Source: Natrinema pellirubrum DSM 15624
GTDB lineage: Archaea > Halobacteriota > Halobacteria > Halobacteriales > Natrialbaceae
Assembly (NCBI RefSeq): GCF_000230735.2
Contig: NC_019962.1
Coordinates: 2,356,001 to 2,420,000 of the forward strand
Direction: 5' to 3'
DNA: 64,000 bases
Positions 28,341 to 39,468 of this stretch are shown here, piece by piece. The notes beneath the pieces are model-generated. The model saw only the letters and a program-made list of their open reading frames with translations. It had not been told where the DNA came from and made no database searches. How positions within the stretch are numbered: position 1 is the stretch's first letter; each line of letters begins with the position of its first letter. A program made the translations under genes and the position numbers.

Positions 28341-29395
28341 TAGTAGTCGTTAGAATTTTCAGCCCAGAGTGTGTACGCGTAGGCAATGGATCACCTCGAC
28401 GAGATCCCCGTCGAAGACCTCCAAGACGCGCTCGACAACGTCGAGGGGAACAAACCGACACAGCGGCTGTTAGCTGCGATTGCGTACAAAAACGGCGTTA
28501 CGCAAACTGAGCTTGCCGAGTGGTACGGTACCGGCCGTCGAACCATCTACAGCTGGCTGATGCGACTGGATACGGACGAACCGCTCGAGCAAGCTGTGGT
28601 TGATGCTAAGCGAACCGGGAGAAAGCGAAAGCTCTCGGATAGACAGCAAGAAGAGTTCGAGCAGACTGTGCACGAGCCACCGACCGAGGTCGGCTACGAC
28701 GCGCCGGCGTGGACGCCGGCGCTCGTCCAGCAGTTTCTCGAAGAAACCTACGGCGTCGAGTACTCCTATCCGAGTTGCCGGCGGTTGCTGAAAGAAGCGG
28801 GGCTCAGCTATCAGAAACCCCGCCGTTCAGCCGCTGAAGCCGATGAAGACGAGCAAGAAGAATTTCACGAGGAGTTCAAAAAAAGCGGCGGGAGATGGAC
28901 GCCACCGTAGTCTGTATCGATCAGACCAAGAAATCCGTCCAGGTCGAGCCGCGTGCCGCGTGGTTTCCGCGCGGCACGCGCCCAAGCGTCGACCTCTCCG
29001 GACAGCGCGACTGGACGTGTCTGTTGGGCGCGATCACCGAGGACGGTGATCGCTTCTTCTCCCGGTTCGAAGAGTACGTCACCGCCGACCACGCGAAACA
29101 TTTCATCTTAGCATTATGTGAAGAGTTCGAGGATGACTTGCTCGTGGTGCTGGATGGTGCGCCGTACTTCCAGGCGTCGGCCGTCACGGACCTGGCGGCC
29201 CGTGACGACCTCGCCTTCGTGACGCTGCCAGCGTATTCGCCGGAGCTCAACCCGGTCGAAGAATGCTGGCGACAGCTACAACAGGCACTCAGCAACCGAT
29301 TCTTCGACTCACTCAACGAGTTAACAACGGCGATCGACACCGCTCTCGACCAACTCTCTGTTCCAAAAGTGAGCAATTATTTCTAACGCCTACTA
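28341..29395 (+). mobile_element. IS630-type insertion sequence
   Basis: A 1055-base element bounded by 15-base terminal inverted repeats: TAGTAGTCGTTAGAA at 28341-28355 and TTCTAACGCCTACTA at 29381-29395, with one mismatch. TA dinucleotides flank both ends (28339-28340 and 29396-29397), the target duplication typical of IS630/Tc1 elements. It carries one two-frame transposase. It stands 40 bases before the start of the CuA/cytochrome d1 gene, within what was probably that operon's promoter. Confidence 0.92.
28386..29386 (+). CDS. IS630 transposase (two frames, possible -1 frameshift)
   Basis: Two overlapping frames, 28386-28910 and 28895-29386. The first (174 residues) has the HTH region GVTQTELAEWYGTGRRTIYSWL; the second (163 residues) has the DDE core: VVCIDQTKK, LVVLDGAPYF and the LNPVEECW ending. 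A run of seven A at 28878-28884 would let ribosomes slip -1 (AAA AAA AGC read onward as AAG CGG), joining the frames into a protein of about 333 residues, the usual IS630 length. Programmed slippage and ordinary decay cannot be separated from sequence alone. The catalytic residues appear intact. Confidence 0.85.
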
Positions 29396-29436: not shown

Positions 29437-31251
29437 ATGTCACGATCCGAGTCACCGGCGGAGTCGGTTGCGGAACACGAGGAACGAATCAAGCGCCACT
29501 TGAGCGCTTCGAGGGAGATCGCGGAGACCCTGGAGTTCGATGACGACCTCAGTTTCGAAATGGGGTTGCCCAGTCCGGGCCGCCGGACGTTCATCAAGAC
29601 CAGCGGCGTCGTCGCTGCGTCGGCTGCGCTGGCGGGCTGTGCCGGCGACGATGACGACGAGGACGACGACGAAAACGACGAGGAGGCGCCGTCGGCCGAG
29701 CGGAGCGAAACCGTCCAGTTGGCCGCCAAGCAATACGAGTTCGACCCCCAGGAGATTCGGGTCCCGCCGAACACGGAACTCACGATCGAGTTCACGCAGT
29801 CGACCTTCGAGGAGAACGAGGACTTCGCGATGCACACGTTCTACCTCGAGGACCCGTACGATGTCGGGCCCGTCGAACTCCCCGAGAACACGAACGACGA
29901 CGTCATCGATTCGGTCACGTTCGTCACCGACGAGGAGGGGACGTTCCAGTTCGAGTGTAACGTCTACTGCGGCGACGGGCACGCCCAGATGAACGGCCAA
30001 CTGTACGTCGTTCCGGAGGGCGAGTCCGTCGACAAGGTTGACTTCACCGACATGGAGACGCTGAAGGAGCGCCACGAGGTCCTCAAAGAGGAGAGCGAAC
30101 TGGCTCAAGAGCCGAGCCACGACCTCGACCTGCGCGATATCATGGTCGTCACCGAGCGCAACAACGCCTCGGTCGCGATGATCGACACGGTCAACGACGA
30201 GTTCATGGAGCGGGTCGAGAACGTCGGGAAGGCGATTCACGTCCACGACTTCCATCCCGACCTGCCGGAGCAAACGCGCGAGGGCGCGTACGTCTACACC
30301 CAGTCCCGACAGGGCGAGATGTACAAGATCGACCTGTTCGACTTCGAGCGGGTCGCCGTCGCCGACGCCGGGACGGACGCCCGTGACATCGCCGTCTCCC
30401 GGGACGGGGACTATGTGATCGGCGGGTTCTACAACCCGAACCATCTGGTCATCTGCGACGCCGAGACGATGGAGCCGATCAAGCGGATCCCGACCCACAC
30501 CGTCAACCCGGACGGCGAGAGCCTGGGGAGCCGCGTCTGCTCGCTGTACGACGTCCCCGAGGAGGGACTCTTCCTCGCGGGACTGAAAGAGGGCGGCGAG
30601 GTGTGGCTCATCGACTACACGCAGGACGACTTCCCGGTCGTCGCGACCATCGAGTGCGGCCGCACCCTCCACGACGGCTTCTTCACGGAGGACGGCCGCT
30701 ACTTCATGATCGCCTCGCAGACGGACAACCAGATGGACATCATCGACACCCACGAGCGGCGCCACGTCGCCGCGATTCCGATGGACGGGGTGCCACACCC
30801 CGGACCGGGCGCGCTGTACCCCGACGAAGACCTCGCCTTTACCACCCACGCCGGCGCGCCGAGCGTCGGCGTCTGGAACACCGAAACCTGGGAGGCCGAG
30901 AAGATGATTGACGTCAGGGGCTCGGGGCTGTTCATCCGGAAACACGAGAACAGCGACTACGTCTGGGCCGACGTCATCCTCACCGACACCGAGGACGACG
31001 CCTACGTCTACACCATCGATCCCGAGACCCTCGAGGTCGATCAGGAGATCGACTGTAGCCAGTGGGGCGCCGCGGCCGCGATCCACCCCGAGTTCAGCCG
31101 CGACGGCGAGAAGGTCTACATTAGCGTCTGGCAGGGCGAGAACGAATCGATCCTCGTGTTCGATCCGAACACGGGCGAGATGCTGACCCAGATCGAGGAC
31201 CTGCTGGCACCGACCGGCAAGTTCCTCGGCGTCCGCGCGGAGGGGCACTGA
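29437..31251 (+). CDS. CuA-type cupredoxin fused to cytochrome d1-like propeller
   Basis: A 604-residue exported protein. A Tat motif GRRTFIKTSG (RR at 49-50) and lipobox ending in LAGC (Cys68) predict lipid anchoring outside the membrane; the 48-residue N-region is unusually long and an ATG at 29560 is an alternative start. Residues about 90-195 form a cupredoxin with CNVYCGDGHAQM (Cys174, Cys178, His182, Met185) and upstream His133, the exact CuA spacing of cytochrome oxidase subunit II. Residues about 230-604 resemble the heme d1 domain of NirS, retaining His268 (AIHV), His412 (LHDGFF) and His454 (PHPGPGA), the heme-ligand and active-site positions. A nitrite-reductase-like role with CuA as electron entry is inferred. 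An IS element occupies its promoter region. Confidence 0.85.
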   Translation: MSRSESPAESVAEHEERIKRHLSASREIAETLEFDDDLSFEMGLPSPGRRTFIKTSGVVAASAALAGCAGDDDDEDDDENDEEAPSAERSETVQLAAKQYEFDPQEIRVPPNTELTIEFTQSTFEENEDFAMHTFYLEDPYDVGPVELPENTNDDVIDSVTFVTDEEGTFQFECNVYCGDGHAQMNGQLYVVPEGESVDKVDFTDMETLKERHEVLKEESELAQEPSHDLDLRDIMVVTERNNASVAMIDTVNDEFMERVENVGKAIHVHDFHPDLPEQTREGAYVYTQSRQGEMYKIDLFDFERVAVADAGTDARDIAVSRDGDYVIGGFYNPNHLVICDAETMEPIKRIPTHTVNPDGESLGSRVCSLYDVPEEGLFLAGLKEGGEVWLIDYTQDDFPVVATIECGRTLHDGFFTEDGRYFMIASQTDNQMDIIDTHERRHVAAIPMDGVPHPGPGALYPDEDLAFTTHAGAPSVGVWNTETWEAEKMIDVRGSGLFIRKHENSDYVWADVILTDTEDDAYVYTIDPETLEVDQEIDCSQWGAAAAIHPEFSRDGEKVYISVWQGENESILVFDPNTGEMLTQIEDLLAPTGKFLGVRAEGH

Positions 31252-31277: not shown

Positions 31278-32420
31278 ATGTCCGATACCAGTAACGCGAC
31301 CCCGCGAACGCGGACGGACCGACGACCGGCGGGACCGCTCGCACTCGTCAAGCACCTCCGCGGGGAGGGGCTGACGGTGATCGACGCGGCCACCCACGAG
31401 CCGCTCGGCCGGATCGGCGACGGCCGCCAGCCACACGCGCTGGCCGTCCGTCCCGGCGGCCGCTGGGCGTACGTCCCCTACATGGGGTCGAACGCGCTCG
31501 AGATCCTCGATTGCTGGACGCTGTCCGTCGTGGATCGCGTCGACGAGGTCGGGACTGCGCCCGTGGGAGCGGTGCTGAGCCGGACGGGACGGTACCTGTT
31601 CGTCAGTACCTACGGCGGCCTCCCGGACGACGACCGCCCGGGACTGGCCGTCTTTCGGACGGCCGGCGAGCGGATCGAACCGGTCGCCGAACTCCCGATC
31701 GGGAAGGCGGCCGGGCTCGCCGTCGACGCCGGCAACGACGTGTGGGTCGCGCTGCGAGACGACGACGAATTGCTCCGGATCGGCGCAACGCCCCCGTTCG
31801 ACGTCCTGGATCGGTTCGCGGTCGGTGCCGGGCCACAGGACCTGGCCCACGAACCGACCCGGGGATTGCTGGGCGTGAACAACGCCGATGGGGACAGCGT
31901 GACCGTCGTCGACACGCTCGAGGCGACGGTCCTCGGGACGGTCCCGGCCCCGAACCCGAGGGGCGGGACCGCCGTCCCGGGACGTGATCGGTGGGTCATC
32001 GGAGACACGGAGGACGACGGCCTCACGGTCGTCGACCTCGAGTCGGTCCGCCGCGGCGAGACCGATGCGACAGCCACGGATCGCGTCTCGCTGGGGACGC
32101 CCACGGCCTTTCCCGACGTTACCCCCGATGGGTCCTTGCTCGCCGTCGACGCGTACGACGACGACCGCGTCGCGTTCCTCGACCCCGCGAGCCTGGACGT
32201 CGTCGCGCGCGTCGAGACCGGATCGACGCCGCGTCACCCGCGGTTCAGCGCGGACGGCCGGGTCTGTTACGTCCCCAGCGTCGACGCCGACACCGTGACC
32301 GTCGTCGACGTCGACGGCGTTCGAGCCGGCGACCCCGACCCGATCGCGGCGACCATCGACGTGCCCGACGGGGCGGCCCCTGCGGGCTGTTTTCGTACCG
32401 ATAGAGGGAGATACTCATGA
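31278..32420 (+). CDS. YVTN/cytochrome d1-like beta-propeller protein 1 (NirF-like)
   Basis: A 380-residue protein built of repeated propeller blades (for example AVRPGGRWAYVPYMGSNALE and VTPDGSLLAVDAYDDDR). It has no signal peptide, so it is probably cytosolic. It belongs to the same broad family as NirF, a propeller enzyme of heme d1 synthesis, and NirN. It is clearly paralogous to the next gene product, sharing blade order and the PVGxxLxxxGxxLFV segment. It lies 26 bases after the d1-like gene and its stop overlaps the next start by four bases. A role in making or inserting heme d1 is inferred from context. Confidence 0.78.
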   Translation: MSDTSNATPRTRTDRRPAGPLALVKHLRGEGLTVIDAATHEPLGRIGDGRQPHALAVRPGGRWAYVPYMGSNALEILDCWTLSVVDRVDEVGTAPVGAVLSRTGRYLFVSTYGGLPDDDRPGLAVFRTAGERIEPVAELPIGKAAGLAVDAGNDVWVALRDDDELLRIGATPPFDVLDRFAVGAGPQDLAHEPTRGLLGVNNADGDSVTVVDTLEATVLGTVPAPNPRGGTAVPGRDRWVIGDTEDDGLTVVDLESVRRGETDATATDRVSLGTPTAFPDVTPDGSLLAVDAYDDDRVAFLDPASLDVVARVETGSTPRHPRFSADGRVCYVPSVDADTVTVVDVDGVRAGDPDPIAATIDVPDGAAPAGCFRTDRGRYS

Positions 32421-33556
32421 CACCGGATACTGACACCGTCACCGCCGCGAACGACCACTCGTCCGGCGCACCGACGATCGTCAAAAACGCCGCCAGCAGC
32501 CACTTCAGCGCGGTCGATCTCGCCGCGGGCGAGGTCGTCGCGGACCTCGGCGAGGGCCGATACCCGCACACGGCGCTGTTTCACCCGGACGAGCCGGTCG
32601 CGTACCTGTTGTACATCGCCAGCGCCCACCTCGAGGTGGTCGATCTCGAGGCGCTCGAGACCGTCCAGCGCGTCGAGCAGCTCGGGACGATGCCCGTCGG
32701 GAGCGCGCTCGGGCCGGCCGGCGACGCGCTGTTCGTCGGGACCGCAGTCGACCTGCCCGCGTCGTCTGATCCGGGCGTCCTCGCGTTCGCGATCGGCGAG
32801 GACGGTCGGCTCGAGCGCGCGGGAACGCGCCCGCTCTCACGGAGTTCCGGGATGCGAATCGGCCCGGACGATCGGCTCTACGTGGGCCAGAAGACGGAAC
32901 ACGAGATCGCCGTCCTCGGTGCCGACTCCGGCCTCGAACTGGCGGCCGAGATCCCGGTCGGGGCGGAGCCACACGACCTGTACGTCCTCGCGGAGGGGCT
33001 GGTGGTCGCCAACCACGCCGGCGGATCGTCGGCCTCGTTCGTCGACGCGGCCGCCGAGCGGGTTCGCTGTACCGCCGAGACGGGGACGAACCCCCACGGG
33101 TTCGCGGTCGCCGACGGCCCCGACTACCGATACGGCCTGTTTCCGGCCCGCGAGGACGACCGCATCGCCGTCGTCGACCTCGAGGCGGTCGCGGCCGGCG
33201 ACGACTCGCCGACCGAACGGCTGCTCGAGGTCGGGACGACGACCGGCTTCGCCGCGACGACGTCGGACGGTCGCTACGCCGTCGTCGACTCCTACGAGGA
33301 GCCGTTCGTGACGATACTGGACCTGACCGACCTCACCGTCGCCGACCGCGTGGAAGTCGGTGGCGAACCGCTCCACGTCGTCTTCGGGCCCGACGGCGAG
33401 GAGTGTTACGTCGGGAACATGGAACGGACCGATCTCGCAGTACTCGACACGCGGCCGCTGGCCGACGACCGCCCGACGGACGTCACCGTCGGCCGCCGAA
33501 TCGACGGACTCGGCGCGAAACCGAGCGGCATCTTCCGCCCGGAGGTGGACCAATGA
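32417..33556 (+). CDS. YVTN/cytochrome d1-like beta-propeller protein 2
   Basis: A 379-residue beta-propeller, tandem paralogue of the preceding gene product: similar length, no signal peptide and matching blades (GRYPHTALFHPDEPVAYLL; PVGSALGPAGDALFVG; GFAATTSDGRYAVVDSY). Its start overlaps the preceding stop and its stop overlaps the radical SAM start, each by four bases, so the operon is translationally coupled. The two may form a heterodimer or act at successive steps of d1-type heme maturation; both ideas are inference. No Cys-rich or redox motif is visible. Confidence 0.76.
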   Translation: MTPDTDTVTAANDHSSGAPTIVKNAASSHFSAVDLAAGEVVADLGEGRYPHTALFHPDEPVAYLLYIASAHLEVVDLEALETVQRVEQLGTMPVGSALGPAGDALFVGTAVDLPASSDPGVLAFAIGEDGRLERAGTRPLSRSSGMRIGPDDRLYVGQKTEHEIAVLGADSGLELAAEIPVGAEPHDLYVLAEGLVVANHAGGSSASFVDAAAERVRCTAETGTNPHGFAVADGPDYRYGLFPAREDDRIAVVDLEAVAAGDDSPTERLLEVGTTTGFAATTSDGRYAVVDSYEEPFVTILDLTDLTVADRVEVGGEPLHVVFGPDGEECYVGNMERTDLAVLDTRPLADDRPTDVTVGRRIDGLGAKPSGIFRPEVDQ

Positions 33557-34773
33557 TCGATCTCACGCGACTCATCAGAGGACTCGACAACCGACCGGAA
33601 CAGATCCGATACGAGAAGCGCCACGCGAGCGACGCGCTCGTTCCGCTGGTCGTCTGGAACACGACCCCCGCCTGTAACCTACAGTGCAAGCACTGCTACT
33701 TCGGGGCCTGCGACGAGCGCGACAGCGAGGAACTGTCGACGGCCGAGGCTAAATCGTTCATCGACTCGCTGGCCGCGGTGAACGTCCCGGTACTCGTGTT
33801 TAGCGGCGGCGAGCCGTTCTTCCGGGACGATATCGCCGAACTGACCCGCTACGCGTCCGAGCAGGGGATTCGGCCGATCGCCTCGAGCAACGGGACCTTC
33901 CTCACCGAGGAGCGCGCACAGGCGGTCGCCGACGCGGGGATGCAGTACGTCGGCGTCTCGCTTGACGGCGTCGGGGCGACCAACGACGAGTTCCGCGGCG
34001 TCGACGGCGCGTTCGAGCGGGCCCGGAACGGGCTTCGCAACGCCCGCGACGCCGGGATGGGGACGGGCATTCGGTGTACGATGACCGAGGGGACTGTCGA
34101 CGACGTCCCCGACGTGATCGACCTCGCCGTCGAGGAGGGGATCGACCGGGTGAACGTCTTTCACCTGATCTACTCCGGGCGCGGCGGTGATATCACCGAC
34201 GCGGACTTATCGTTCGAGCGCACGCGGGAGGTCGTCGACGCCCTCTACGAGCGCACCAAAGCCCTCGCCGACACCCATCCCGACATGCAGATCCTGACCG
34301 CCGGCAACTACGCCGACGCGGTCTATCTCTACCACCGGATTCGGGAGGACATGCCGGCCCACGCCGATCGGGCTCGAAAACTCCTGTTCGACGACGGCCC
34401 CGGTCGAGTGGTCAAGAACGGCGACGCCGGCCCCAAGGTCGTCAACGTCGACCACCGCGGCGACGTCCACCCGAGCATGTTCCTCTCGCAGTACACGCTC
34501 GGGAACGTCCGCGAGCGCCGCCTCGACGAGATCCTCGCCGACAGCGACCTTTGGGACGAACTGGCCGAACCGACCGACCACCTGAAGGGGAAATGCGGCC
34601 GCTGTCCCTGGAAGGAGGTCTGTGGCGGGAACTCCCGAGCCCGCGCCGCGGCGGTCCACGACGACCTCTGGGCCGAGGATCCCCGGTGTTACCTCACCGA
34701 GGCCGAGTACAGCACCGACGAACTGCCGACCGATCACGCGCCACCGGTCGACGCGACCGCAGCGCTCGAGTAG
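33553..34773 (+). CDS. Radical SAM/SPASM protein, NirJ/AhbC/AhbD-like
   Basis: A 406-residue radical SAM enzyme. CNLQCKHC (Cys41, Cys45, Cys48) binds the SAM-coordinating [4Fe-4S] cluster, SGGEPFF is the SAM-binding GGE motif, and the C-terminus has a SPASM-type auxiliary cluster (CGRCPWKEVCGG, then DPRCYL). The last pattern is typical of heme-modifying members: NirJ of heme d1 synthesis and AhbC/AhbD of the siroheme-dependent heme pathway. Position in a d1-like operon makes the NirJ role most likely, but sequence alone does not separate these. Its start overlaps the preceding stop. Confidence 0.86.
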   Translation: MIDLTRLIRGLDNRPEQIRYEKRHASDALVPLVVWNTTPACNLQCKHCYFGACDERDSEELSTAEAKSFIDSLAAVNVPVLVFSGGEPFFRDDIAELTRYASEQGIRPIASSNGTFLTEERAQAVADAGMQYVGVSLDGVGATNDEFRGVDGAFERARNGLRNARDAGMGTGIRCTMTEGTVDDVPDVIDLAVEEGIDRVNVFHLIYSGRGGDITDADLSFERTREVVDALYERTKALADTHPDMQILTAGNYADAVYLYHRIREDMPAHADRARKLLFDDGPGRVVKNGDAGPKVVNVDHRGDVHPSMFLSQYTLGNVRERRLDEILADSDLWDELAEPTDHLKGKCGRCPWKEVCGGNSRARAAAVHDDLWAEDPRCYLTEAEYSTDELPTDHAPPVDATAALE

Positions 34774-34777
34774 GCCC

Positions 34778-36079
34778 ATGCACGCCCCCGATTCAGTGCC
34801 CCCGGATGCGCGGACCGAGCCCGAGCCGTCGCCTGTCGCGGCGGTACCGAAGAGCGTCCGCCGACTCGCGTGTTACCGGATCGACCACGAGAGCCGCTCG
34901 ACCGGGGAACTGGGCGCGGTCGCTCCGGACGATCCCCTCGCTGCCGCCCGGCGGATCGCGGCCCACGACCGCGTCACCGAGGCGGTCGTCCTCTCGACGT
35001 GCAACCGCGTCGAGGCGTATCTCAGCACGCGGACGCCCGCCGACCGGGACGCAGGGCTCGATGCCGCACGCGAGGCACTGGGCGATCCCGACGGCGCGCG
35101 GACCGAGACCGAACTCGCAGTCGCCGAACACCTGTTTCGCGTTGCCTGCGGCCTCGAGAGCGCTGTCATCGGCGAGGCACACGTTCTCGGCCAGCTCCGA
35201 CGGACGTTCGACGCGGCGCTCGAGGCGGACCTCGCCGGCGGCGTGGTGACCCGGGCCGCGGACGCGGCCGTCTCGGTGGGGCGGCGCTGTCGCGACGAGA
35301 CCGACATCGACGAGGGGACGGTCGGCTACGGGAGCGCGACCTGCGAGGCCATCGCCGACGCGGGCGGGGTCCCGGATCGGCTCGTCGTCGTCGGTGCCGG
35401 CGAGATGGCGACCGAAGTGGCCAGCGCCGCCGGCCACCGCTGGGACTGCCGCGTCGACGCCGTCAACCGCTCGGCCGCGCCCCAACTCCCGACCGAGGAT
35501 GGTCGGTACTGGCCGCTCGAGGCCCTCGAAGCCGCGCTCGCCGACGCCGACGCGATCGTAACGGCGACGGGCGCACCGAACCCGGTGGTAACGCTCGAGA
35601 CGATACAGGGGGAGGGGGTCGACCCCGGGACGCCGGTCGTGGATCTGGCGACCCCGCCGGACGTCGCCAAACCCGTCCGCCGATCGGCCGTGCAGGTCGT
35701 GGCCCTCGACGCGATCCAGCGTCGGATCGAGGCCGCCGTCGCGGGTCGGCGGGCGGCGGTGCCGGCGGTCGAGGACGCGATCACTGACGCGGTCGCGGCC
35801 TTCGTCGATCGGGAACGCGAGAACCGTGCCGAAGACACGCTTCGCGAACTCCACCGGACGGCGGCCGCGGTCCGCGAGAGCGAACTCGAGCGGGCCCGTG
35901 ACCGGCTCGCGAGCGGGGCCGACGCCGAGGCGGTCCTCGAGGACTTCGCGAGCGCACTGACCGGATCGTTGCTTGGTACGCCGACCGAGCGCCTCCGGGC
36001 GGCCGCCCGGGACGGCGACGACGCGGTTATCGAGGCCACCCATCAGCTGTTCGACCTCGACTGCGAGGGGTCGGAGTGA
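34778..36079 (+). CDS. hemA: Glutamyl-tRNA reductase
   Basis: A 433-residue HemA, reducing glutamyl-tRNA with NADPH to glutamate-1-semialdehyde, the first step of tetrapyrrole synthesis. The catalytic Cys lies in STCNRVEAY (about residue 70); GLESAVIGEAHVLGQLR and the NADPH-binding VVVGAGEMATEVA follow, with a C-terminal dimerisation helix region. An N-terminal extension of about 25 residues precedes the domain. It comes four bases after the radical SAM gene, so it appears dedicated to this operon. Whether it is the only hemA in the genome or an extra copy boosting heme d1 supply cannot be seen here. Confidence 0.9.
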   Translation: MHAPDSVPPDARTEPEPSPVAAVPKSVRRLACYRIDHESRSTGELGAVAPDDPLAAARRIAAHDRVTEAVVLSTCNRVEAYLSTRTPADRDAGLDAAREALGDPDGARTETELAVAEHLFRVACGLESAVIGEAHVLGQLRRTFDAALEADLAGGVVTRAADAAVSVGRRCRDETDIDEGTVGYGSATCEAIADAGGVPDRLVVVGAGEMATEVASAAGHRWDCRVDAVNRSAAPQLPTEDGRYWPLEALEAALADADAIVTATGAPNPVVTLETIQGEGVDPGTPVVDLATPPDVAKPVRRSAVQVVALDAIQRRIEAAVAGRRAAVPAVEDAITDAVAAFVDRERENRAEDTLRELHRTAAAVRESELERARDRLASGADAEAVLEDFASALTGSLLGTPTERLRAAARDGDDAVIEATHQLFDLDCEGSE

Positions 36080-36236: not shown

Positions 36237-36307
36237 GGGTTAAAGAATCGAGTAGCAACGTCGGCGTGTATGCTATCGAAACGCTCCGCCACACGAGGTG
36301 GTCGACG

Positions 36308-39300
36308 ATGAGTCTCTCGCGTCGCGATTTCCTGGCGGCTGCCGGGACGGGGACGGTCGGTGCCCTGCTCGGCTCCGCGTGGGGAGCGACCCAATCCGTC
36401 GACTCCATCACACAGGTCGACAACCCGCTCAAGGCCTACCCCAACCGTGACTGGGAGGAGGTCTACCACGACATCTACGAGTACGATTCGGTCGATTGGA
36501 CCGTCTGCCACCCCAACTGTACGCAGTCGTGTGCCCTGAACTTCTACATGAAAAACGGGGTCCCGATCAGGGCCGAACAGATCTATCACGAGGAGGAGGG
36601 CAGCCCCGGTCCGGGCGGCCCCGGCGGCTACGAGGAGGCGGGGGTCACCCGCCACTGGAACCCGCGTGGCTGCATGAAGGGGCTGACGCTCCACCGCCGG
36701 ACGTTCGAGCCCAGCCGGATCAAGTACCCCATGGTCCGCAAGGGGTGGAGTCCCGACGACCCCAACCCCGAGGGCCGCGGCGAGGACGAGTTCGAGCGCG
36801 TCTCCTGGGACGAAGCGATCGACCTGATCGCCGAGAAGATGGCGAGCCTCGAGGACGAAAAGCGCTTCCACATTTTCAACGCGATCAAATCGGACGGACT
36901 GATCACCCGCCACGGGGCCGGCCGACGGCTGGCCTCGATCTTCGGCGGCTGCGAGTGGACGGAGTACGACTGGTACGCCGATCTGCCGCCGGGTCACGTC
37001 ATCACGACGGGCTATCAGACCAGCGACGCCGACGCGTCGGCCTGGCGGGCCGCCGACTACACGATCATGCAGGGGAAGACCTGATCCACAACAAGCTCGC
37101 GGACAATCACTTCCTCCAGGAGACCCGCGAGCGCGGCGGCAAGATGGTCGGCGTCTACCCCGACTACTCGCCGACGGTCCAGAAGTGCGACCGCTGGCTC
37201 CCCGTCCGTCCGGGTAGCGACCCCGCCTTTGCCCTGGGCGTGGCCCACGTCATCATCGACGAGGAACGCTACGACGAGGAGTTCATGCGGAAGTTCACGA
37301 CCCTGCCGCTGTTGATCCGGCAGGACGACGGGAAGTACCTCCGCGCCCACGAGGTCTTCCCCGATCACGAACCGCCCGCCGAGGACAGCGAGCAGCGCCA
37401 CGAGGAAAACGACTGGGGCGACTTCGTCGCCCTCGACGAGAACGGCGATCCCGTCCCCGTCACCCGCGAGGAAGTCGGCGAGGAGACGCCCGCGACCCCG
37501 CAGCTCGAGGTCGACACCGAACTCGAGCTGGCAAACGGCGAGTCGGTCGGCGTCCACACCGACTTCGTCCGCCAGAAGTCGAACATCCTCGAGAACTACG
37601 ATCCGGAGACGGTCGAGGAGATCACGACGATCCCGGCTGACGGGCTCCGGAAGACGGCCCGCGAGTTCGCCGACGCCGAGAAGGCCCAGTGGTTCACCGG
37701 CGAGGGGATCAACCACTGGTTCCACTCCAACGACTCGCTCCAGCGGACGATCTTTTTCATCCAGTCGATGCTGGGCAACATCGGCGAGCGCGGGGCCGGC
37801 TACTACAACTACTCCGGCCAGTACAAGATCGAACTGCTGGACGGCTACCCCTCCTACGTCAACCCCGACGGCAACGCCGCCCACGGGATGTATCCCGGCT
37901 ACGCGTTCGCGTTCTTCGGTGGCGAGCAACTCGACGCCCACGAGATCCGCGGGGACTTCGACCGCGAACTCGACCTGGTTCCACAGGGCGACGCCGAGGA
38001 GCCGGTGATGCCGACCAACGCCGAGTCGTACACGATGTCGAAGCCGACGGTCCTGTGGACGATGAACTGCAACCTCCTGAACCAGACCAAACATCAGGAG
38101 CACGTCATCGAGAACTTCGTCAAACATCCGGACACGAGCAACGAGCTCTCGATCGTCTCGGACATGCACATGACCTACTCCGCGCGCCACGCGGACATCG
38201 TCCTCCCGGTCCCCTCCTGGCTCGAGTGCGATTACCCGGACATCACCGTCGGGCCGGAGAACCCGTTCATCCACATGGACCACGGGGTCATGGATCCGCT
38301 GTACGACACGAAGCAGGACGGCGAGGCCGTCGCGATGGTTGCCGAGAAACTTGACGAGAAGATCCCGCCGGAGGAGCGCAACGTCGACTCCTATCGGGCC
38401 TACTTCGACAAGTTCCTCGACGACGACAAGGACGTCCGCGACTACATCCAGGAGACGCTGGACGCGGGGATGACGACCCGCGACATCGACGTCGAGGACA
38501 TCGAGGACGGTCCCGAACGCCTCCAGCTGAAGACGTATCCGCGGATCCCCTTCTACTCCCAGATCAACGAGGACCGGCCGTTCTACACCAAGACCGGCCG
38601 GATGGAGTTCCACAAGGAGGAAGACCGGTTCCTCGAGCTGGGACGGGCCGACCTCGACCACATCGAGAGCCCCGAGGGGACGCCCTACGGGGTGAACAAG
38701 AAGTGGGACGAGGCAAAAGACGAGGAGAACCCGCTGTATCACGACGAGGAGTACCAGTTCTACTACAACACGCCTCACCCGAAGTACCGGACCCACTCCT
38801 CGTGGGGGATGACCGACTGGAACCTGATCTGGTCCTCGCGTGACTTCGGCTCGACCAACGCCGATCCCGAGGGGACCGAGCGGCTGGTCGACGACTTCTC
38901 GTTCCCGCAGGGCGAGGGCGAGACCGAGGAAACCCCGCCGCTTGGCGAGGCGTTCGTCGAGATGCACCCCGAGGACGCCGCGGACATCGACGTCGAGAAC
39001 GGCGACTACGTCCGGATCACCGGCAAGCGCGGCGACCTCGTCGTGCGCGTGATGGTCAGCGAGCGCCAGCGCCCCCGCTCGGCCGGCGACATGGGCCAGC
39101 TGACGATCTGGCACGGCTGGTGGCCCCAGCACTTCCCCGACGACGAGGAGCAAGGCGACGGCGTCAAGGGATACAACGTCACGACGAACATCTGGCTCGA
39201 CCCGGCCCAGGAGACCGACGACCTCGTCCACAAGTCCGTCTTCGGCGATCCGAACATCTCCGAACACGTCGAGGACGACATCGTCTGGCAGGGGGCCGAA

Positions 39301-39468
39301 CTCGAGCACGGCTACGAGGAGACCGTCTGGGCACCGACGGGAACGAACCGCGACGACCTCGTGGAAGTCGAGAAATACGAGGAGGCGGACTGGTGGCCCG
39401 GCGACGCACGGAAGGACGAACTGTTCCAGGACTACGTGAGCGGATCGCTGCAGGGAGGTGACAGCTGA
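36308..39468 (+). pseudogene. Type II DMSO-reductase-family molybdoenzyme catalytic subunit, frameshifted
   Basis: An exported molybdopterin oxidoreductase of about 1050 residues if repaired. The ATG at 36308 follows a GAGGTGG ribosome-binding-like sequence and begins with a Tat signal (SRRDFLAAAG). C-x3-C-x3-C (CHPNCTQSC) and RGCMKG supply the [4Fe-4S] ligands, with Cys where NarG has His. YADLPPG contains the Asp equivalent to the NarG molybdenum ligand. The frame stops at 37082-37084 but homology continues in the next frame to 39468: GGG AAG ACC TGA would restore GK-NLIHNKLADNHF if one A were added near 37078. Nitrate, selenate, chlorate or a related substrate is possible. One-base overlap couples it to the Fe-S subunit. 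Confidence 0.85.

Follow-up and report, generated by a model that had tools for sequence, protein, structure and literature searches.

A haloarchaeal protein family joining a predicted CuA domain to a cytochrome d1-type propeller

Natrinema pellirubrum DSM 15624 has a gene in which a predicted CuA cupredoxin domain precedes a heme d1-type propeller, in the place where the NirS nitrite reductase carries heme c. It lies in a window of 64,000 nucleotides of contig NC_019962.1, and positions below are those of the window. We propose that its product is a membrane-tethered, Tat-exported nitrite reductase of the cd1-like kind, with a binuclear CuA centre in place of heme c, and we assign this reading a probability of about 0.62. 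The architecture itself, with a CuA domain for heme c and a d1-type catalytic propeller in one chain, had been proposed in a first-pass annotation and is well supported, because sequence, conservation, fold, and operon context agree on it. In NirS, by definition, heme d1 receives its electrons from heme c. Since the cytochrome c domain, one of its defining features, is absent, we do not file the protein as NirS but treat it as NirS-like, with another route of electron entry. The features of the gene, all on the plus strand, are as follows.

29437-31251, plus strand: CuA-d1 fusion gene (604 aa), NirS-like, heme c motif absent
29437-29580, plus strand: N-terminal extension (aa 1-48) preceding the Tat motif, conserved across genera
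29581-29640, plus strand: Tat motif RR49-50 and lipobox Cys68, from Pfam TAT_signal and invariance
29704-30027, plus strand: CuA cupredoxin domain (aa 90-197), with CoxB, NosZ, and CuA matches and a fold matching ba3 CuA and NosZ
29833-29835, plus strand: His133 codon, upstream CuA ligand, invariant and aligned to the CuA His of NosZ
29956-29991, plus strand: CuA loop C174-x3-C178-x3-H182-x2-M185, invariant in 10 homologues
30127-31230, plus strand: heme d1-type eight-bladed propeller (aa 231-598), PF02239, structural match to cd1 NirS
30238-30240, plus strand: His268 codon, predicted proximal heme ligand (P. aeruginosa His182), from alignment
30670-30672, plus strand: His412 codon, predicted catalytic His (P. 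aeruginosa His327), from alignment; Asp in NirN, Tyr in NirF
30796-30798, plus strand: His454 codon, predicted catalytic His (P. aeruginosa His369), from alignment

The ATG at 29437 opens the 604-aa reading frame, and relatives favour it as the start. The same frame can be extended upstream to 29263, a start that we discarded because the extension reads back into an IS630 element. This element (28341-29393, with ORFs at 28386-28910 and 28895-29386) sits within a TTATA sequence of a conserved intergenic block, about 40 bases before the fusion start codon. It is absent from relatives and may alter expression of the operon in N. pellirubrum.

Two features identify the product as a Tat lipoprotein, in keeping with its earlier description as exported: RR49-50 and the lipobox Cys68, both invariant among nine homologues. 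The Pfam TAT_signal model matches residues 49 to 66 (E = 2.7e-4, slightly under its cut-off). The roughly 48 aa before the Tat motif (IKRHLSASREIA...) are kept between genera and exceed the usual Tat n-region. They include a helix predicted at residues 11 to 31 in a low-confidence model, and the extension may serve to dock a maturation partner in the cytoplasm.

The CuA ligand set of His, Cys, Cys, His, and Met is complete (H133, C174, C178, H182, and M185), and each residue is where the first-pass annotation had placed it. That annotation also claimed the exact spacing of cytochrome oxidase subunit II. The claim holds for the Cys-Cys-His-Met loop, but a match was not established for the interval between H133 and C174. 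The pattern C-x3-C-x3-H-x2-M arose in 3 of 20,000 shuffles of the fusion protein and does not vary among ten homologues, the most distant at 52% identity. Therefore, the motif is not a product of chance.

Profile searches also led to CuA proteins. Pfam Cupredoxin_1 gave a weak match at residues 86 to 176 (E = 4.4e-5, under Pfam's cut-off), the NCBIfam CoxB and NosZ models reach the cupredoxin end of the protein, and a PDB search matched its N-terminal part to the CuA domain of Thermus ba3 oxidase. When a profile of the domain built from 10 sequences was compared with the PDB, CuA proteins came first (nitrous-oxide reductase, E = 5e-5; ba3 oxidase subunit II, E of about 1e-4). Structure prediction had been suggested as a check on the CuA site. 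Modelled alone (pLDDT 71), the cupredoxin domain matched ba3 CuA (Foldseek E 8e-5), an engineered CuA, and the CuA domain of NosZ (Z 10.5). The CuA loop had low confidence in the full-length model. We consider it very likely that the protein binds CuA.

The rest of the protein belongs to the d1 family. PF02239 (Cytochrom_D1) covers residues 231 to 598 with an E-value of 9.5e-76 and 255 bits, against a cut-off of 25.5. No CxxCH heme c motif was found in the 604 aa, and the cupredoxin stands there instead. Alignment with P. aeruginosa NirS equates H268, H412, and H454 with His182, His327, and His369, as had been claimed for the three d1 histidines, and all three equivalents are present in 8/8 fusion representatives compared. 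The CuA and d1 ligands are intact in all homologues compared residue by residue, to about 50% identity. Homologues lacking the three histidines had been named as evidence that would count against the first-pass annotation, and every homologue compared by residue keeps them. The propeller therefore has the histidines of NirS, and it probably, with only a little less assurance than for CuA, carries a d1-type tetrapyrrole.

NirN and NirF have propellers of the same superfamily. This raises the alternative that the fusion protein is a biosynthesis or delivery protein for heme d1, with CuA accepting electrons from dehydrogenation of dihydro-heme d1. A PDB search with the propeller matched NirN, cd1 NirS, and NirF, and phmmer gave 143 bits for NirN and 140.6 for NirS. 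An AlphaFold2 full-length model run on ten sequences was of moderate quality (mean pLDDT 70). Foldseek E-values rank NirN first for this model, whereas structural Z favours cd1 NirS (1e2r, 46.6) over NirN (44.3) and NirF (37.0). The position of His327 separates the three proteins. Among our reference sequences it is His in NirS, Asp in NirN, and Tyr in NirF, and His412 occupies it in all fusion homologues compared. We therefore rejected identity with NirN or NirF. A biosynthetic role would fit the other tetrapyrrole-type genes of the operon, but the only obvious user of the cofactor would then be a cytoplasmic paralogue that is absent from two of the genomes (G021 and G028). Overall, we regard this alternative as improbable.

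In a phylogenetic tree, the fusion family is a clade (97/95), distinct from those of NirN and NirF, and falls outside NirS plus NirN with moderate support (92/88). A single clade of fusion and NirS was not rejected (p-AU 0.25). Membership in NosZ or L-NosZ was rejected, with 48.3 bits for L-NosZ (cut-off 700), 19 bits for the NosZ models (cut-off 625), and a propeller of the d1 type.

Arg156, Arg198, and Arg372 of NirS bind heme side chains (PMC7278500). The fusion protein keeps the equivalents of Arg156 and Arg198, and Arg372 is replaced by Pro457. Ruegeria NirS, the nearest bacterial relative found (up to 40% identity over the propeller), also has Pro at this position.

Four genes follow the fusion gene on the same strand.

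31278-32420, plus strand: propeller 2, cytoplasmic, YVTN/NirF-like, with no signal peptide seen; adjoins the fusion gene in every locus compared
32417-33556, plus strand: propeller 3, cytoplasmic, with a NirF-like C-terminus (PSGIF); its start overlaps the stop of propeller 2
33553-34773, plus strand: radical SAM/SPASM enzyme of the AhbC/NirJ group, CxxxCxxC intact; its start overlaps the stop of propeller 3
34775-36079, plus strand: second hemA (glutamyl-tRNA reductase), TIGR01035 at 224 bits, over the cut-off

This order is kept in Natrinema, Halorubrum, Natronomonas, and Halobiforma. One locus (G037) has the first four genes of the operon, with hemA absent. The N. pellirubrum genome has two hemA copies and three genes of the AhbC/NirJ group. 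The operon radical SAM gene is the third of these; the other two are a TIGR04347-type and an AhbD-like member. Among 29 Natrinema genomes, the operon radical SAM gene (92 to 100% identity) is found in exactly the 8 with the fusion (Fisher p = 2e-7, relatedness ignored). Fusion-less genomes have copies of at most 44 to 47% and 36 to 39% identity, and these housekeeping copies are present irrespective of the fusion. The operon and this co-occurrence fit a d1-type cofactor in a protein whose CuA replaces heme c.

Propellers 2 and 3 both lack a visible signal peptide and align end to end with NirF, and the PSGIF C-terminus is that of propeller 3. A NirF-like role for them is a guess because a generic YVTN propeller matches both better than NirF does. 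In the bacterial periplasm, NirF acts with NirC to install the heme d1 keto groups (PMC13168839). We found no NirC, NirN, or NirE in the operon.

The radical SAM enzyme belongs to the AhbC/NirJ group but within none of its curated subfamilies. It scores 338 bits against a cut-off of 515 for TIGR04051 (NirJ), 352 of 650 for AhbC, 372 of 650 for NirJ1, and 383 of 525 for TIGR04347. These equally good fits, all under cut-off, could mean that the ligand of the propeller is a precursor of d1 or a different tetrapyrrole, for example an Fe-coproporphyrin or siroheme derivative, produced by this AhbC-like enzyme, and that the protein is a new-cofactor enzyme. NirC and NirN not being found in the operon and the replacement of Arg372 point the same way. 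However, the Arg-to-Pro change is shared with the Ruegeria protein, which is at once the closest bacterial relative found, at 40% identity, and part of a standard nir operon. We judge a new cofactor improbable as well, marginally more so than a biosynthetic role. A doubtful but wider proposal is that the family is a separate class of heme nitrite reductase, in which CuA supplies the electrons, the cofactor is inserted in the cytoplasm, and Tat exports the folded protein. Its members would depend on a short cofactor route of their own, made up of HemA, two propellers, and a radical SAM enzyme of the AhbC type, without NirC or NirN. Such a class may make a previously unknown d1-like tetrapyrrole.

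DMSO-reductase-type genes begin at 36266. None was found beside the operon in other genera, and they were excluded from the system. Among them, the molybdopterin alpha subunit of a DMSO-reductase type II complex (36266-39468) has a one-base deletion after 37078, seen against two Natrinema relatives (AAG-ACC versus AAGAACC), that splits its frame. This is either a real pseudogene or a sequencing error.

The first-pass annotation had also suggested looking for the same fusion across archaea. After removal of duplicates between collections, it is found in about 15 species of at least five haloarchaeal genera. With a conserved operon in addition, this spread rules out chance or an annotation artefact. 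The nearest relative is the N. thermotolerans protein (97% identity). Besides the 8/29 Natrinema genomes, the fusion is present in Halorubrum, Natronomonas, Halobiforma, and one more genus of the same family. At the order level it was found in 14 of 392 sampled genomes, the additional ones matching over the whole length, beyond the set compared by residue. A looser threshold at the phylum level gave matches in 7 of 393 sampled genomes. One of the seven (L061, G430:C1:3132787-3133917), from a genome labelled as the same phylum, has a heme c motif and is a canonical NirS of bacterial appearance. An alignment-based scan of contigs, using patterns specific to close relatives that more distant CuA-d1 fusions could escape, found nine loci. 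A single-sequence scan of genome contigs gave no match, and tblastn of plasmids returned d1 parts only and never the fusion.

N. pellirubrum also has a propeller-only paralogue elsewhere in its genome (L002, L034; G000:C1:1977723-1978913). It is 44% identical, lacks CuA and a signal peptide, and keeps all three heme histidines. It occurs in five other Natrinema and in two fusion-bearing genomes of another genus. Its place in the tree is within the fusion clade, and therefore it has probably lost the CuA domain.

NirK was detected in every fusion-bearing genome searched, as fragments only in one of them (G014). Within Natrinema, it is in 8/8 fusion genomes and 11/21 others (p = 0.027, uncorrected for relatedness). 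A NorB-like gene is present in 11 of the 13 fusion hosts searched. In one relative, NirK (G011:C8:14814-15746) shares a contig with the fusion gene at a distance of about 10 kb. We rejected replacement of NirK because it is in every host searched; the fusion therefore appears to be an additional enzyme of denitrifier-type genomes. The first-pass annotation had set the gene against a group usually described as using copper NirK. There is a d1-type gene in that group, but the contrast has to be adjusted, for NirK coexists with it.

The presence of NirK leaves room for the same cofactors serving another reaction. The substrate could be NO, oxygen, hydroxylamine, or some further small molecule, and the enzyme might, for instance, work alongside NirK in defence against NO or oxygen. 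Cytochromes cd1 reduce oxygen and hydroxylamine too. In Halobiforma nitratireducens (L059:4964-9532), genes for COX1 and SCO1/SenC are close upstream of the fusion, and the SCO1/SenC type is known for CuA assembly. However, the fusion protein retains both catalytic His residues of NirS, and the hosts are of the denitrifier type, with NirK and mostly a NorB-like gene. We consider another reaction unlikely, although less so than the two alternatives above. Nitrite reduction by the fusion protein is plausible, and nitrite is somewhat favoured as the main substrate.

In the mechanism that we propose for nitrite reduction, a small donor outside the membrane, probably halocyanin, would reduce CuA. 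A halocyanin-type donor has been suggested for NirK in Haloferax (PMC8301774). The electron would move from CuA to a d1-type heme that His268 holds in the propeller. Nitrite over the iron would receive protons from His412 and His454, its reduction would yield NO outside the membrane, and a NorB-type enzyme could remove this NO. For cofactor supply, the second HemA would raise tetrapyrrole flux, and the extra radical SAM enzyme would divert an AhbAB-type intermediate to a d1-type isobacteriochlorin. The two cytoplasmic propellers would act like NirF in tailoring or delivery. Their location leads us to propose that the propeller of the fusion is loaded before Tat export.

Known systems share parts of this design. 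The cd1 NirS proteins (P. aeruginosa 1NIR, P. pantotrophus 1QKS, and Ruegeria) have in common with the fusion a full d1 propeller, His182/327/369, Arg156, Arg198, and export. The fusion differs in having a CuA cupredoxin for the heme c domain, a Tat lipoprotein signal, Pro for Arg372, and an operon without the nirC/nirN/nirE/nirDLGH set. In passages of PMC8756737, Chloroflexi NirS proteins are described that carry an extra cytochrome and, in some cases, a cupredoxin at the N-terminus, and so also have a copper-type domain upstream of the NirS domain in one chain. There, as those passages have it, the cupredoxin is added onto heme c domains (C1-C2-NirS), whereas in the haloarchaeal fusion CuA alone replaces heme c. 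CuA stands in for heme c in qCuANOR of Bacillus azotoformans and other CuA-type NO reductases, according to passages of PMC3475470 and PMC8756737. Like the fusion, these are denitrification enzymes with CuA as the electron entry, but the catalytic subunit of qCuANOR is unrelated, being of the heme-copper oxidase superfamily. NosZ, the top CuA profile match, also has a CuA domain and a beta-propeller in one exported chain. Its domain order is the reverse, the propeller of the fusion is of the d1 family, and NosZ models match the CuA end only, at low score.

Several lines of evidence count for a CuA-fed, cd1-like nitrite reductase. These are the complete and invariant ligand sets, the His327 equivalent, the Arg156 and Arg198 equivalents, and the structural Z for NirS; the CuA profile and fold matches, the kept operon, the radical SAM co-occurrence, and the second hemA; and NirK with mostly a NorB-like gene in the hosts, together with the CuA-for-heme-c logic of qCuANOR. 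Against it, the activity may be redundant or different with NirK in every host searched. The radical SAM enzyme under the NirJ cut-off with an equal AhbC-type fit, the operon without NirC, NirN, or NirE, the YVTN match above NirF, Pro457, possible branching outside NirS plus NirN, the low-confidence CuA loop in the full-length model, and the locus without hemA also count on this side.

The protein is partly known from gene surveys. Table 6 of PMC11052009 catalogues haloarchaeal genes as nirS in nirK genomes, and in a passage of PMC10999283 (Pold 2024), a cytochrome d protein of Halobacteriota that lacks the c domain is set aside as an outgroup. These are very probably the fusion family, because the Natrinema, Halorubrum, Natronomonas, and Halobiforma species or genera in Table 6 are those in which we found the fusion. 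The main-text passages of both papers mention neither a CuA domain nor a conserved operon, and we found no description of CuA in a haloarchaeal nirS-like protein in the openly available main texts covered.

The fusion resembles a nitrite reductase of the heme type, in organisms often credited with the copper type only. NirK is stated to be the only respiratory nitrite reductase of haloarchaea in a passage of PMC8400030, which our reading would contradict. Gene surveys are affected, since fusion sequences are either excluded or counted as ordinary nirS. The operon is a putative compact gene set for synthesis of a heme d1-type cofactor outside bacteria. A d1 enzyme fed by CuA would mean that its electron-entry module is exchangeable, as in NO reductases.
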